A stretch of DNA of 64,000 nucleotides, taken from positions 62,001 to 126,000 of the forward strand of contig NZ_JAMXFA010000019.1 of assembly GCF_025370785.1 (NCBI RefSeq), given 5' to 3'. The stretch is from Laspinema olomoucense D3b. Lineage in GTDB: Bacteria; Cyanobacteriota; Cyanobacteriia; Cyanobacteriales; Laspinemataceae. Positions 16,781-22,800 of the stretch are shown here, one piece after another (positions within the stretch are counted from its first letter, which is position 1; each line of letters begins with the position of its first letter). The position numbers and the translations under genes were made by a program. The notes beneath the pieces are model-generated. The model saw only the letters and a program-made list of their open reading frames with translations. It made no database searches and was not told the DNA's origin.

Positions 16781-18072
16781 TGATAGTCGAAGAATTGAAA
16801 CAACAAAATTTTACCCCTCCCACTTCCGATGATGCTGAGTTGTTGGTTTCCGTGGAAAATCTTTCTAAGAAATTTTGCCGAAATTTAAAGAAATCTTTGC
16901 TTTATGGGGTGCGAGATATTGCCGCTGAATTAATCGGAGGAGGTAGAAAAAGCGATGTGCTGCGAGAGGGGGAATTTTGGGCGCTGCGGGATATTGAGTT
17001 CCAACTCAGACGGGGGGAAGCCCTGGGATTAGTGGGAGCAAATGGAGCTGGAAAAAGTACCCTATTACGGATTATTAGTGGGTTAATTCATCCCGACACC
17101 GGCTCGGTCAAAATTAGAGGCCGCGTTGCCCCCTTAATTGCCTTGGGAGCGGGATTTAATCCTATTTTAACCGGGCGAGAAAATATTTATGCCAATATGT
17201 CAATTTTAGGGTTACCCACCCGAGAAATCAAGGAAAGATTTGATGAAGTGGTGGAGTTTGCAGAGATTGCCGATGCCATTGATGCGCCGGTTCAAACCTA
17301 TAGTTCTGGGATGGCGGCGCGATTAGGATTTGCTTGTGCGGCGCATATTAATCCAGATATTTTGCTGATTGATGAAGTGTTAGCCGTGGGAGATGTCAAG
17401 TTTAAAATTAAATGTCATCGCCGCTTGGCGCAATTGCGGGAAACGGGAACGGCTTTTATTCTGGTGTCCCATAATTCCCACAGTTTGCTAAATGTTTGCG
17501 ATCGCTCGATTTATTTGAAAAAAGGGCAACTAATTACCTCGGGAGAAACTGAGTCGGTGATTCGTCACTATGAGGAAGATCTTTGTTTGAGTGGCACAGA
17601 TAAAGCAAACGGCGCAATGGTACTCCCGGCAAAATCCCCCCAGGAAAGCATGGGATTAGATATTACCCAGGTTTGTTTTAAAGATGAAACGGGCAATATT
17701 TTAGAATATCTCAATTCTGGGGAACCGGCTTATTTATCCGTAGAATGTAAATCATCCGGCTATTTTGATAATGCCAATTTGGGGTTTTTGCTCACCGGAT
17801 TAGGAGGCGATCGCGAGTATGTGTTATATCTCACGACAGCCAGTGATAATGAGTTGTTGGAAATCTCCCCAGGACGAGTGGAAATTCAGATGCACTTGCC
17901 GCACTGCGGTTTAGTGCCCGGTACATATAGTGCCAAAATTTATATCAGAACCGGGGTGAAATCCTTGGATATTGTAGAATCATTTAGATTTACGGTCAAA
18001 TCCAATAAAGTAACCAGCCGATGTCAGTTTTATCAGCCCCGGAGTTGGAAAGTGCTTCATCATCAAGATTAG
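16780..18072 (+). CDS. ABC exporter ATP-binding protein with C-terminal glycan-binding domain (Wzt-like)
   Basis: The protein has 430 residues from the ATG at 16780, inside the permease stop codon (TGATG). Residues 15-265 form the ATPase: Walker A VGANGAGKSTL, signature YSSGMAARLGFA, Walker B ILLIDEVLAVGD, and the switch His in LVSHNS. The Wzt-type N-terminal arrangement (LSKKFCRNLKKSLLYGVRDI) is present. Residues about 280-430 match the beta-sandwich Wzt C-terminal domain that reads the end modification of the exported polymer. This suggests that chain length is set by a terminal cap. Confidence 0.93.
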   Translation: MIVEELKQQNFTPPTSDDAELLVSVENLSKKFCRNLKKSLLYGVRDIAAELIGGGRKSDVLREGEFWALRDIEFQLRRGEALGLVGANGAGKSTLLRIISGLIHPDTGSVKIRGRVAPLIALGAGFNPILTGRENIYANMSILGLPTREIKERFDEVVEFAEIADAIDAPVQTYSSGMAARLGFACAAHINPDILLIDEVLAVGDVKFKIKCHRRLAQLRETGTAFILVSHNSHSLLNVCDRSIYLKKGQLITSGETESVIRHYEEDLCLSGTDKANGAMVLPAKSPQESMGLDITQVCFKDETGNILEYLNSGEPAYLSVECKSSGYFDNANLGFLLTGLGGDREYVLYLTTASDNELLEISPGRVEIQMHLPHCGLVPGTYSAKIYIRTGVKSLDIVESFRFTVKSNKVTSRCQFYQPRSWKVLHHQD

Positions 18073-18077
18073 ATCGG

Positions 18078-18130
18078 TTGCAAAATACCGGATTGATCCC
18101 CCCAACCCCCCTTAAGAAGGGGGGCTTTTC
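18078..18130 (+). repeat. Dispersed 50-base repeat with C/G hairpin, copy 1
   Basis: The block reads TTGCAAAATACC, a three-base spacer, TTGATCCCCCCAACC, then a CCCCCC/GGGGGG hairpin (18106-18111 with 18119-18124) and CTTTT. The same string, apart from a few bases, is found on the minus strand at 62605-62656. Here it directly follows the Wzt stop codon and can work as its terminator. Confidence 0.75.
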
Positions 18131-18312: not shown

Positions 18313-18369
18313 ATGTTAAACCGCAGCCCCTTCTTTTATTTTTGGTTTACCTTGGTTCACCAGCAGTGA
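18313..18369 (+). CDS. Aromatic leader peptide 1
   Basis: This 18-codon ORF runs from ATG at 18313 to TGA at 18367 and contains PFFYFWF: six consecutive aromatic codons at 18331-18348 (TTC TTT TAT TTT TGG TTT). No clear ribosome binding site is seen, which is not unusual in cyanobacteria. The last codons overlap the 5' arm (18354-18364) of a perfect 11-base-pair stem that excludes the terminator at 18399-18425. ORF, codon content and overlap are seen directly. The role as a sensor of charged Phe, Tyr and Trp tRNA is inferred from classic attenuators. Confidence 0.8.
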   Translation: MLNRSPFFYFWFTLVHQQ

Positions 18370-18425
18370 ATCCATTTTGACATGGAAACCGCTGGTGAAC
18401 CGCAGAAGCAACGCTGCGGTTTTTT
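18354..18425 (+). promoter_or_regulatory. Attenuator 1: mutually exclusive antiterminator and terminator
   Basis: Antiterminator: GGTTCACCAGC (18354-18364) pairs perfectly with GCTGGTGAACC (18391-18401). Terminator: ACCGCAG (18399-18405) pairs with CTGCGGT (18414-18420), followed by a six-T run (18420-18425). The two stems share bases 18399-18401, so both cannot be complete at once. A ribosome held at the aromatic codons would leave 18354-18364 free and favour read-through. A ribosome at the TGA (18367-18369) would cover it and allow termination. Confidence 0.78.
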
Positions 18426-18468: not shown

Positions 18469-18534
18469 ATGACATCCCATCTCCCTAACTGGTTTTTTGG
18501 CTTTTACTTTTGGCTCAGAAAGAGTTCTGGGTAG
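18469..18534 (+). CDS. Aromatic leader peptide 2
   Basis: This 21-codon ORF runs from ATG at 18469 to TAG at 18532. Its core is NWFFGFYFWLR: seven aromatic codons out of eight at 18490-18513 (two Trp, four Phe, one Tyr). A purine-rich AAAGG (18456-18460) lies eight bases before the ATG. The last codons form the 5' arm (18524-18532) of an antiterminator for the next terminator. It is unrelated in sequence to leader 1 outside the aromatic run, so it is not a simple recent duplication. Confidence 0.85.
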   Translation: MTSHLPNWFFGFYFWLRKSSG

Positions 18535-18594
18535 GTTTTGTCATGATGCCAAATCGCCTTAGCCCGGAACTTTAAACAGGTTCCGGGCTTTTTT
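18524..18594 (+). promoter_or_regulatory. Attenuator 2: antiterminator and terminator before DAHP synthase
   Basis: Terminator: AGCCCGGAAC (18561-18570) pairs perfectly with GTTCCGGGCT (18580-18589) with a nine-base loop and a T run to 18594. Antiterminator: GTTCTGGGT (18524-18532), at the end of leader 2, can pair with GCCCGGAAC (18562-18570) over nine positions including two G-U pairs, which removes the 5' arm of the terminator. The layout repeats that of attenuator 1. It ends 40 bases before the DAHP synthase start. Confidence 0.8.
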
Positions 18595-18633
18595 ATCGTC
18601 CATCTTGATTATTTGTACATAAGGAGTAATTCC

Positions 18634-19491
18634 ATGAAAAATGCCAAACTCGTCAGCAAATCTCATCCCACACAGCAAACCGCCATTTCCATAGGCGATC
18701 GCACCACTATCGGGGGCCAAGACTTATTAATAATCGGCGGTCCCTGTGCCGTAGAGAGTCTTGAACAAATGGAAACCGTCGCCCGTCACCTCGCCCATGC
18801 ACCCGTGCAAATGTTACGCGGTGGCGTCTTCAAACCCCGCACCTCCCCTTACTCGTTTCAAGGCATGGGAGATGCGGGGTTAACTATTTTATCCGCAGTG
18901 CGTCAGCGCTATGGAATTCCCGTGGTGACAGAAGTAATGTCAGTTCATCAAATTGAAAGCATTGTCGCCCACGCCGATTTGTTACAAGTAGGCAGTCGGA
19001 ATATGCAAAATTTCGACTTGCTCAAAGCATTAGGAGAAGCGGGTAAACCTGTGTTGTTGAAGCGGGGACTGGCAGCAACCCTGGAGGAATTTGTGTTTGC
19101 TGCTGAATATATCCTGTCTCATGGTAACCCCGATGTGATTCTCTGTGAACGGGGGATCCGCAGTTTCGATTCATTCACGCGGAATATTCTGGATTTGGGG
19201 GCAGTAGTGGCCCTGAAACAGATTACCCATTTGCCGGTGATGGTGGACCCGTCTCATGCCGCAGGTAAGCGAGAATTGGTAGCAGGATTGGCAAGGGCTG
19301 CAGTAGCAGCAGGTGCTGATGGGTTGATTATTGAGTGTCACCCGGAACCGGAACAGTCGGTTTCTGATGCCAGACAGGCTCTTTCTCTCCCCGAAATGGT
19401 AGAGTTAGTGCAGAGTTTGGCACTGGTGGCAGAGGCTGTAGGCCGTCGCGTGCCAGGGGTGGAACCTGTGCGGGAATTATCGGCAGCTTAA
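18634..19491 (+). CDS. aroF: 3-deoxy-7-phosphoheptulonate synthase (DAHP synthase), class I-beta
   Basis: The 285-residue enzyme joins phosphoenolpyruvate and erythrose 4-phosphate, the first step of the shikimate pathway. The ATG at 18634 has AAGGAG eight bases upstream; the in-frame codon at 18613 does not. Motifs are IIGGPCAVES, KPRTSPYSFQG, LQVGSRNMQNF, LLKRGLAAT and MVDPSHAAGKRELV, typical of the AroA/AroF I-beta group related to KDO8P synthase. Only about 25 residues precede the barrel, so the ferredoxin-like or chorismate-mutase regulatory domains of feedback-inhibited relatives are absent. Two tandem attenuator-like leaders precede it. The symbol follows common cyanobacterial usage. 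Confidence 0.93.
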   Translation: MKNAKLVSKSHPTQQTAISIGDRTTIGGQDLLIIGGPCAVESLEQMETVARHLAHAPVQMLRGGVFKPRTSPYSFQGMGDAGLTILSAVRQRYGIPVVTEVMSVHQIESIVAHADLLQVGSRNMQNFDLLKALGEAGKPVLLKRGLAATLEEFVFAAEYILSHGNPDVILCERGIRSFDSFTRNILDLGAVVALKQITHLPVMVDPSHAAGKRELVAGLARAAVAAGADGLIIECHPEPEQSVSDARQALSLPEMVELVQSLALVAEAVGRRVPGVEPVRELSAA

Positions 19492-20215: not shown

Positions 20216-20797
20216 ATGACAGAGATATTTGGAGACTTCATTGAGGAGTTGCCCTCGGGAACGGAATATTTGATTTTGGGATTTTCTCCTGCTTCGCTCC
20301 CCCTCAAACAGCGATGGCGAAACAATGGATTATCGGCGGATTTTCTAGCAGACTATTTAACTACATTTTTTCCCAGTAGCGATGAAACCGCTTTAAAGCT
20401 GGATAAAAAAGCAGAAATTCAATGTGCAGTCAGCTATGTTGCCAATGAGCTTTTAGAGAATGCGATGAAGTTTAGTGTGGAGACTCAGGGATATCCGATT
20501 AGTATTCAACTCCATTTAAATTCTGAAAGAATTATTTTTGTGACTACTAATAGTATTTCTCAGCAGAAAGTGGCGGATTTTCAGGCATTTTTAAAGCGGT
20601 TAAGCACGGAGGACCCCCTACAACTCTACATTGAGCAACTGGAAAAAAATGCCCAGGAGGGTGGCAGCAGCACCTCGGGATTGGGTTTTCTGACTATGAT
20701 TAATGACTATGACGCTAAGATAGGGTGGAAATTTCAGGATATGAACGGGGACCAAAAAGCGATCGCCGTAACCACAATGGTACAGCTCTTATTATAG
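20216..20797 (+). CDS. HATPase-like regulatory protein, SiaB/DUF6272-like
   Basis: The protein has 193 residues. The segment AEIQCAVSYVANELLENAMKFS near residues 68-90 is the N-box of a GHKL ATPase, and GGSSTSGLGFLTMINDY near residue 147 resembles its glycine-rich lid. There is no HisKA domain or receiver. It resembles the SiaB-type (DUF6272) kinase-like proteins that phosphorylate a STAS partner, and a STAS gene does follow. Role in a partner-switching module is inferred. Confidence 0.7.
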   Translation: MTEIFGDFIEELPSGTEYLILGFSPASLPLKQRWRNNGLSADFLADYLTTFFPSSDETALKLDKKAEIQCAVSYVANELLENAMKFSVETQGYPISIQLHLNSERIIFVTTNSISQQKVADFQAFLKRLSTEDPLQLYIEQLEKNAQEGGSSTSGLGFLTMINDYDAKIGWKFQDMNGDQKAIAVTTMVQLLL

Positions 20798-21150
20798 ACT
20801 CATTAATATCGCGAGACTTGCAGCCCTATCTGATTCTATTCTTTGGCTGGTGGGACAATTGCTCCTAGAGAGCGAGGCGCAAGTGATCAGAGGTGCTGCC
20901 TTGACGAAGGACCAGGGTTGTCAATGGACTGAAGGGGTCATTCTACTGAACGGTATCCTGGCATTGTCCCGTACCATTAACTAGGGAGTGATTCGACGAG
21001 CATCCGTCAGAGTTGGGGAGTGCATCGACTAGAACCGGAGAGAAACGAGAGAGGAGGCAATCCAATCTGGGCAAACTACGGTTAGGATCGGCAAGCTGAC
21101 CCTCCTACTCCTTATACCCCCCGAGATCCCTTATTAACGACTGACTACTA
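20798..21150. other. Intergenic region inside the signalling module
   Basis: These 353 bases between the ATPase-like gene and the STAS gene hold no convincing ORF or terminator. They are G- and A-rich towards the end (GAGAGAAACGAGAGAGGAGG near 21045), which may reflect an untranslated leader of the STAS gene. Confidence 0.35.
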
Positions 21151-21498
21151 ATGATGGAAATTAAGACTGACGATTATCGCCTGTGGTATGAGAATGAAAC
21201 CGCGACACTAAACTGCCTAGGTTCCCTGCGGTTGAATGGTATGGATGAATATGACCCCATTATTCAACTCCTCGAAAGTGCGATCGACCAAGAACCGGAG
21301 ACGATGATCCTCAATCTCAAGGGCCTAGAATTTTTAAACAGCTCGGGGATCAACGTGCTTTCCAAGTTTGTGATTAAGGTACGGCAGAAAAAAAATGTGA
21401 ACCTGATTGTCAAAGGTTCTACAAAGCTGCTGTGGCAGGGAAAATCATTAAAGAACCTACAGCGTCTGATGCCGTCTTTAAAACTGGAATGGGAATAG
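21151..21498 (+). CDS. STAS domain protein (anti-anti-sigma-factor-like)
   Basis: The protein has 115 residues and consists of one STAS-like domain: GSLRLNGMDEYDPIIQLL, then ETMILNLKGLEFLNSSGINVLSKFVI, where the SSG holds the Ser usually phosphorylated in this family. It lies between an ATPase-like protein and a histidine kinase on the same strand, so it probably switches partners when phosphorylated. Target unknown. The start could be either of two adjacent ATG codons. Confidence 0.8.
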   Translation: MMEIKTDDYRLWYENETATLNCLGSLRLNGMDEYDPIIQLLESAIDQEPETMILNLKGLEFLNSSGINVLSKFVIKVRQKKNVNLIVKGSTKLLWQGKSLKNLQRLMPSLKLEWE

Positions 21499-21744
21499 GG
21501 AGAGACCCCAGGGGAGTGGGTCGTTATCAGGGGCATGATACCCGTCGCCATCTTGTAGACGACAGCAGACTGCTCTGCCAAAGGTAGCTCAAGGGTCAAA
21601 GCGGCTGATTGCCCTCAGTTGAATCCCTGGTCCTCTTTCAAGTCTTCAAAAATACTTTAAAGCGACCCTCAACCGGAGCTTGATCGGTAGAACTTTTAGA
21701 AGGCTTGAACAAGGCGAGTACAACGGGGTAAAGCGGCAAACGTC

Positions 21745-22800
21745 ATGCGATCGCCAAAGGAAGAAATTAAGTCTATGTGGGAAGAGACAGTAACAAGAGA
21801 ACAGCTCCTTTTGGAGGTCCAGACCCTGCGCCGGGATATGGAAATACTTAAGCAGGAAAAAAATGACCTGGAGATCCTACTGGAGAATACCACGGAACAT
21901 TGCGATAATATCGAAGCCGAGCTGTTAAAAGCCAAAGAGGTGGCCGAAGTGGCAAGCCGTGCTAAAAGTGAATTTTTAGCGAATATGAGCCACGAACTGC
22001 GAACCCCTTTAAATGGCATTTTAGGCTATGCCCAACTGATGTTGGAAGAAGAAGAAGACCTCACGGAACAACAACGACTTGACCTGACTAAAATTTATCA
22101 ATGCGGCGAACATCTCTTAACTTTAATCGCCGATATTCTCGATATAGCTAAAATAGAAGCGTGCCGATTAGAAATCGATGCACAACAATTTCACTTTCCT
22201 CAATTTCTGAAAGGAATTTGTGACTTATTTGATATGCGCTCTAAACAAAAGGGGATCGAGTTTACTTACGAGCGGGTTACCTCTTTACCCAATGGCATTT
22301 ACACCGATCAGAAACGATTGCGGCAAATTCTGATTAATTTATTAGGAAATGCGGTTAAGTTTACGGATTGCGGTTGGGTTGCCTTTAAAGTGGGCTATGC
22401 GGTTAATGGACAGTGGTGTCATACCGATCGCCTTCCGGGTTGTTACTCCCTCCCTAGTAGCCACGGAACTACCGAGGAACTGAAGCCGGAAGCAGAGAAC
22501 AGCGGACATCTGCCCCCCCGAAAAATTCGCTTTGAAATTCAAGATACAGGCATCGGCATTCCCGAGGAAATGCTCAACGAAATTTTTCTCCCCTTCCATC
22601 AAGTTGGAGATAAAAGCCGGATGGCAGAAGGCACGGGACTCGGACTGGCGATTAGTAAAAAATTAGTAGAAATGATGGGAGGAGAGCTCCATGTTATCAG
22701 TCGCGTCGGCGAAGGGAGCATCTTTTGGATGGAGTTGGAGTTGCAAGAACTTCCAGAATGGGTAGATAGCAACTCCTTACCTTTAAGAATCGGAAATTAA
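21745..22800 (+). CDS. Sensor histidine kinase with N-terminal coiled coil
   Basis: The protein has up to 351 residues. A coiled coil ([20 protein letters not shown] and on, residues 15-70) leads to HisKA with [19 protein letters not shown], in which the His is the phosphorylation site. HATPase follows: [17 protein letters not shown], then [15 protein letters not shown] and [17 protein letters not shown]. An insertion of about 45 residues lies between the N and G1 boxes. No membrane segment or input domain is seen, so its input probably comes from a partner such as the upstream STAS protein. A start at the ATG at 21775 is equally possible. Confidence 0.9.

Follow-up and report, generated by a model that had tools for sequence, protein, structure and literature searches.

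Does the DNA in front of a cyanobacterial 3-deoxy-7-phosphoheptulonate (DAHP) synthase gene control its transcription and, if so, by what means? The question arises from the window, the 64,000-nucleotide stretch of Laspinema olomoucense D3b DNA analyzed here, in which this gene occupies 18634-19491 on the forward strand. The encoded protein scored 355 bits against TIGR01361 (cut-off, 268) and 400 bits against NF006421 (cut-off, 335) and was 97% identical to a protein of Laspinema palackyanum. Its product is the precursor of Phe, Tyr, and Trp, the residues found in a leader peptide upstream. Attenuation of amino-acid genes is classical, and the initial annotation had described an attenuator at 18313-18425; the anatomy given there is confirmed, and the element is one of two in series. 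We consider it very likely that it is a ribosome-mediated transcription attenuator, the first of the pair before the DAHP synthase gene. The best reading is that the attenuators sense Phe and Tyr (and Trp). A gene for a polysaccharide-export ATPase lies upstream in the same orientation; it ends at 18072, and the terminator-like site at 18106-18124 is assigned to it. Downstream (20216-22800) is what is probably a partner-switching signaling cluster: a regulator of the slr1658 family (NF052618), the possible partner of this regulator (a short protein), and a protein resembling a sensor kinase.

Leader 1 (18313-18369, forward strand; the same strand applies to all features below) is an open reading frame (ORF) of 18 codons ending in TGA at 18367-18369, with the translation MLNRSPFFYFWFTLVHQQ. 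An equivalent leader was found at 109 sampled orthologous loci, and the length of 18 codons recurred in 65 of the 107 loci whose leader 1 has an ATG. The sensor codons Phe-Phe-Tyr-Phe-Trp-Phe lie at 18331-18348, and codons for F, Y, and W occurred together in leader 1 at 105 of the 109 loci. Behind them and before the TGA, within the codons Leu-Val-His-Gln-Gln, comes the 5' arm of the antiterminator (region 2; 18354-18364), just as previously annotated. Its sequence, GGTTCACCAGC, is the exact reverse complement of GCTGGTGAACC at 18391-18401 (region 3), so that the coordinates first given for a perfect 11-pair stem were exact. This is the longest perfect stem in 18313-18425, a length reached by only 8 of 5,000 dinucleotide shuffles, and the 158-nt leader RNA had a fold z score of -4.65. 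Between leader 1 and the gene, a terminator scanner identified intrinsic terminator 1 (18397-18425), with a stem of nine pairs (18397-18405/18414-18422) and then a run of T's (T tract, 18420-18425). Within it, ACCGCAG at 18399-18405 pairs with CTGCGGT at 18414-18420. The overlap of the two helices was real, although it spans five bases (18397-18401) when the full 9-pair stem is taken, rather than the three originally counted.

A small hairpin (18371-18386; stem 18371-18375/18382-18386) folds directly 3' of the leader 1 stop codon and is nested in the antiterminator. In relatives, the 24 nt after the stop codon had a mean folding energy of -4.9 kcal/mol, versus -2.2 kcal/mol for shuffled sequences. 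This hairpin may act as an RNA polymerase pause hairpin that takes over pausing from the 1:2 helix of classical attenuators. The minimum-energy structure also contained a pairing of 18317-18325 with the 3' arm of the terminator; it was treated as local because L003 has CCCCAG in place of CCGCAG and the 5' part of leader 1 was variable in the alignment. A Shine-Dalgarno-like tetramer was present at leader 1 in only 4 of 107 loci, yet the mechanism proposed below calls for efficient translation. A scan for a strict sigma-70 promoter found none; both results speak against that mechanism.

The second attenuator repeats this organization. Of the 109 loci with leader 1, 105 had leader peptide 2 as well (MTSHLPNWFFGFYFWLRKSSG; 18469-18534), which in the window starts directly 3' of a HIP1-type palindrome, GGCGATCGCC. 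The 5' arm of antiterminator 2 (18523-18532) lies in the last codons, Ser-Ser-Gly-stop, and pairs with 18562-18571; 94.8% of the cells of this helix were paired across 46 sequences. Intrinsic terminator 2 (18561-18594; stem 18561-18572/18578-18589 plus a T tract) was recognized by the scanner, the alignment, and a three-way table, and its 5' arm doubles as the 3' arm of antiterminator 2. A site at 18621-18626 was assigned from the sequence.

The distribution of the element was examined by retrieving the best 80 DAHP synthase relatives and further upstream regions from 89 loci of the class. Among the best 80 relatives, both leaders were found in nearly all of those with enough upstream DNA. The four loci with leader 1 only (L185, L186, L187, and L188) all belonged to family f22. 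At locus L183 (genome G230), the only leader was of the kind seen in attenuator 2. A covariance model of attenuator 1 matched 144 of 390 cyanobacterial genomes, once per genome; that of attenuator 2 matched 124 of 380 genomes of the class, and 113 genomes were matched by both. In part of the remainder, leader 2 was present but divergent, for example at L157. Weak matches of the attenuator 2 model in small genomes (G339, G090, and others) were taken as false positives because the G339 match, the sole one examined, sits at the start of an ORF resembling a cytochrome-b6f subunit. Plasmid records gave enzyme-level or short matches only. Thirteen regions before more distant DAHP synthases (about 48 to 57% identity) carried no comparable leader, save for a doubtful ORF at L192 (genome G020). 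There, before a DAHP synthase of 53% identity, a possible unrelated leader (MKNSQFWYSFTFRSATGVRHRSG), whose ORF stops about 417 bases short of the locus end, is followed by a strong terminator; together they are possibly an independent attenuator. A scan for aromatic ORFs found no leaders before the second DAHP synthase, the trpE-like genes, or the prephenate dehydratase gene of the same genome. The double element travels with the DAHP synthase gene across many families.

The two exclusive helices of attenuator 1 were then compared in an alignment of 96 diverse sequences, with pair cells counted in 95 of them and with 500 shuffles and slid helices as controls. Both helices covaried, which bore out the expectation that relatives would carry compensatory changes. 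In the antiterminator, 79 cells had changed on both sides, against 25.1 in the shuffles and at most 28 in the slid controls; none of the 500 shuffles reached 79, and none reached the observed covariation score of 0.268 (0.141 when shuffled). For the terminator, in which 99.5% of the cells were paired across 95 sequences, the corresponding count was 26 versus 2.8 (0 of 500). Of the antiterminator pairs, the eight outermost (GGTTCACC/GGTGAACC) form the conserved core; the three innermost of the 11-pair stem in the window were variable, being unpaired in 14 to 23 of 95 sequences. Uncompensated breaks of the stem, which the initial annotation had named as what would refute it, were confined to 12 of about 760 cells over the eight core pairs. 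The most stringent comparison was that at the five shared bases, where 26 of the 96 sequences differed from the majority. All five pairs were kept in both helices by 22 of these; the other 4 lost one or two antiterminator pairs, and no terminator pair was lost in any. Some variants had changed on all three strands, such as U/A/U to C/G/C, or GUCC/GGAC/GGUC in L005 and L052. A mutually exclusive antiterminator that shares a strand with the terminator has thus been kept by covariation.

The 5' arm of the antiterminator is also coding sequence, and its codon use was informative. The His codon in the arm was CAC in 103 of 104 cases, compared with 142 of 290 (49%) in the enzyme gene, and the Val codon was GTT in 99 of 102, compared with 286 of 1,010 (28%). 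In the aromatic run, TAT and TAC were both freely used. At L175, a one-nucleotide frameshift has changed the end of the peptide from VHL to RFT, and the RNA arm GGTTCACTTAG is intact. The near-fixed Val and His codons and this frameshift therefore indicate that the constraint at the arm is on the RNA, and codon use in the aromatic run points to the amino acid there. Gaps within the leader ORF were mostly multiples of three. These observations bear on whether the leaders could be arrest peptides, in which, as in TnaC, the ribosome would be stalled by the nascent chain together with a ligand (a free aromatic amino acid or some other) and the C terminus (VHRE, FYFWPRxSSG) is itself functional. 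The leader peptides are unusually conserved, above all leader 2, and TnaC-type sensors do use aromatic residues. However, the C-terminal residues that are conserved are those encoded by the RNA arms, where the nucleotides of the codons are themselves fixed, and L175 has retained its arm with a different peptide end. A biosynthetic gene would also be better served by a starvation switch than by a stall induced by excess. We regard an arrest peptide as improbable.

Exclusive helices alone are no proof of a ribosome sensor, and the hairpin after the stop codon is more stable than expected by chance; a protein or metabolite might bind the antiterminator or terminator RNA directly, in the manner of LicT, TRAP, or a riboswitch, with the ORF being incidental. 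An incidental ORF would hardly account for aromatic-rich frames of nearly constant length (18 and 20 to 21 codons), for gaps that mostly keep the frame, or for an ORF end that holds a fixed position with respect to the arm in each attenuator, and no Rfam family reached threshold, so that we consider direct binding very unlikely. The simplest account, in which the terminators simply belong to the transport gene upstream, the ORFs are due to chance, and the DAHP synthase gene is unregulated, draws on the position of the polysaccharide-export ATPase gene, which ends upstream on the same strand. That gene, however, has a terminator-like site of its own, and the double element accompanies the DAHP synthase gene in many families, the models matching once per genome. 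Covariation and synteny contradict this account, which we find barely credible.

For ribosome-mediated attenuation, the choice between the helices should depend on the position of the ribosome. We modeled this by folding the RNA downstream of a ribosome whose footprint extended 12 nt beyond the first base of the A-site codon. With a ribosome waiting at Phe7 to Phe10, the window RNA was predicted to form the antiterminator; with one at the stop codon, where it had been proposed to cover the arm, the terminator was favored. In each of the 76 sequences of the first set, moving the ribosome from the aromatic codons to the stop codon increased pairing at the terminator base. The earlier proposal that a stall anywhere in 18331-18348 frees the arm agreed with the model for Phe7 to Phe10, and the range was slightly too long: a ribosome waiting on the last Phe codon (18346), and in the model also one on the Trp codon (18343), already extends over the beginning of the arm. 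Waiting at Trp11, whose codon precedes the arm by 11 nt, was borderline, giving the antiterminator at a reach of 10 nt and the terminator at a reach of at least 12 nt. The choice of helix by ribosome position is thus a result of the folding model, in which the outcome at the Trp codon is sensitive to the footprint. Seven relatives (L088, L090, L100, L109, L152, L156, and L169) have FWFF, with the Trp codon 14 nt, not 11 nt, from the arm, which would ease sensing of Trp by attenuator 1. Before the last strand was made, regions 2 and 3 paired with a median probability of 0.999. Some results count against the mechanism: in the window, only five of the nine terminator pairs are shared between the helices, a terminator remnant of 4 to 6 bp can coexist with the antiterminator at equilibrium, and for a few relatives (L043, L066, and L075) the terminator was predicted even with a stalled ribosome. 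In attenuator 2, the terminator always won at equilibrium and ribosome position caused no switching; equilibrium folding was therefore set aside as uninformative for this attenuator. Antiterminator 2 forms first (median, 0.87), and attenuator 2 would thus have to depend on this order and be decided kinetically.

The mechanism that we propose for the ribosome-mediated attenuators is as follows. When Phe- and Tyr-tRNA (and perhaps also Trp-tRNA) are charged, the ribosome would reach the stop codon of leader 1 and cover region 2, leaving region 3 free for region 4, and transcription would end near 18425. With too little charged tRNA, the ribosome would wait on the aromatic codons; region 2, now free, would capture region 3, and the U-tract-proximal half of the terminator stem would be removed. 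A polymerase that reads through would meet attenuator 2, where the same test would be repeated. A 1:2 helix was not supported: region 2 paired with the preceding 95 nt at an average of 0.46, versus 0.50 when that upstream sequence was shuffled. As the free, untranslated leader RNA of the window folded as the antiterminator, an untranslated leader should read through. In leader 1, just 11 nt separate the Trp codon from the arm; in leader 2, 61 loci have a Trp codon early in the frame, about 33 nt upstream of the arm there. This difference suggests that the work may be shared, with Phe and Tyr sensed in attenuator 1, Trp added in attenuator 2, and read-through of both needed. An AND gate of this kind, with attenuator 1 mainly for Phe and Tyr, attenuator 2 also for Trp, and read-through of an untranslated leader, is put forward tentatively.

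The element resembles the Escherichia coli trp and pheA leaders in having a short leader peptide rich in the pathway product and an antiterminator and an intrinsic terminator that share a strand, with a stalled ribosome favoring read-through. The logic of the trp and phe attenuators, invoked in the initial annotation, thus holds for the exclusive, covarying helices; it fails at the 1:2 protector/pause helix, there being no segment upstream of region 2 that shields the arm. Here, moreover, region 2 lies within the last sense codons, F, Y, and W occur in one leader, two attenuators stand in series, and the target is DAHP synthase. The predicted read-through of an untranslated leader is the opposite of the trp default. 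A search of the window against Rfam at gathering and relaxed thresholds gave nothing above cut-off. Trp_leader (RF00513) reached at best 16.0 bits (cut-off, 41) and the trpB motif (RF04312) 28.3 bits (cut-off, 59), both on attenuator 2; the trpB motif had no match to attenuator 1. The uORFC-13-1 motif, known upstream of aroF from 24 representatives in Acholeplasma and environmental sequences only (PMC8632094), likewise has Phe codons in a small upstream ORF, then a terminator and a DAHP synthase gene. It differs, by its description, in being single and in having at least one Phe codon only. Attenuation of E. coli aroF has been hypothesized (PMC8632094). Salmonella mgtCBR provides a precedent for tandem attenuators (PMC3641672): two short ORFs in its leader are each tied to a stem-loop controlling transcription into the coding region. 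The signals there are different and the operon is a virulence/Mg operon, whereas in the element studied here a shared aromatic signature marks the two leaders, which precede a single biosynthetic gene.

According to a survey of leader genes from 2016, reliable data on cyanobacterial attenuation are lacking (PMC4833913), and the open full-text literature, to which our search was confined, named no such case and held no report of this element. The ribosome-mediated attenuation proposed here, doubled in series and lacking the classical 1:2 helix, is therefore provisionally new for cyanobacteria. The doubled, covarying attenuator across much of the class makes a case for attenuation in these organisms. 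Translation-independent mRNA localization has been described in cyanobacteria (PMC7858274), and the element would be a compact natural reporter for transcription-translation coupling in this group. It is relevant to the engineering of aromatic products because constructs with the native leader would remain repressed. In many cyanobacteria, a tandem leader mRNA before the first gene of the aromatic pathway appears to turn transcription off when Phe, Tyr, and Trp are plentiful, which indicates how carbon entry into this pathway may be controlled in these phototrophs. If the AND-gate reading is true, entry into the shikimate pathway would be under tight transcription-translation coupling.
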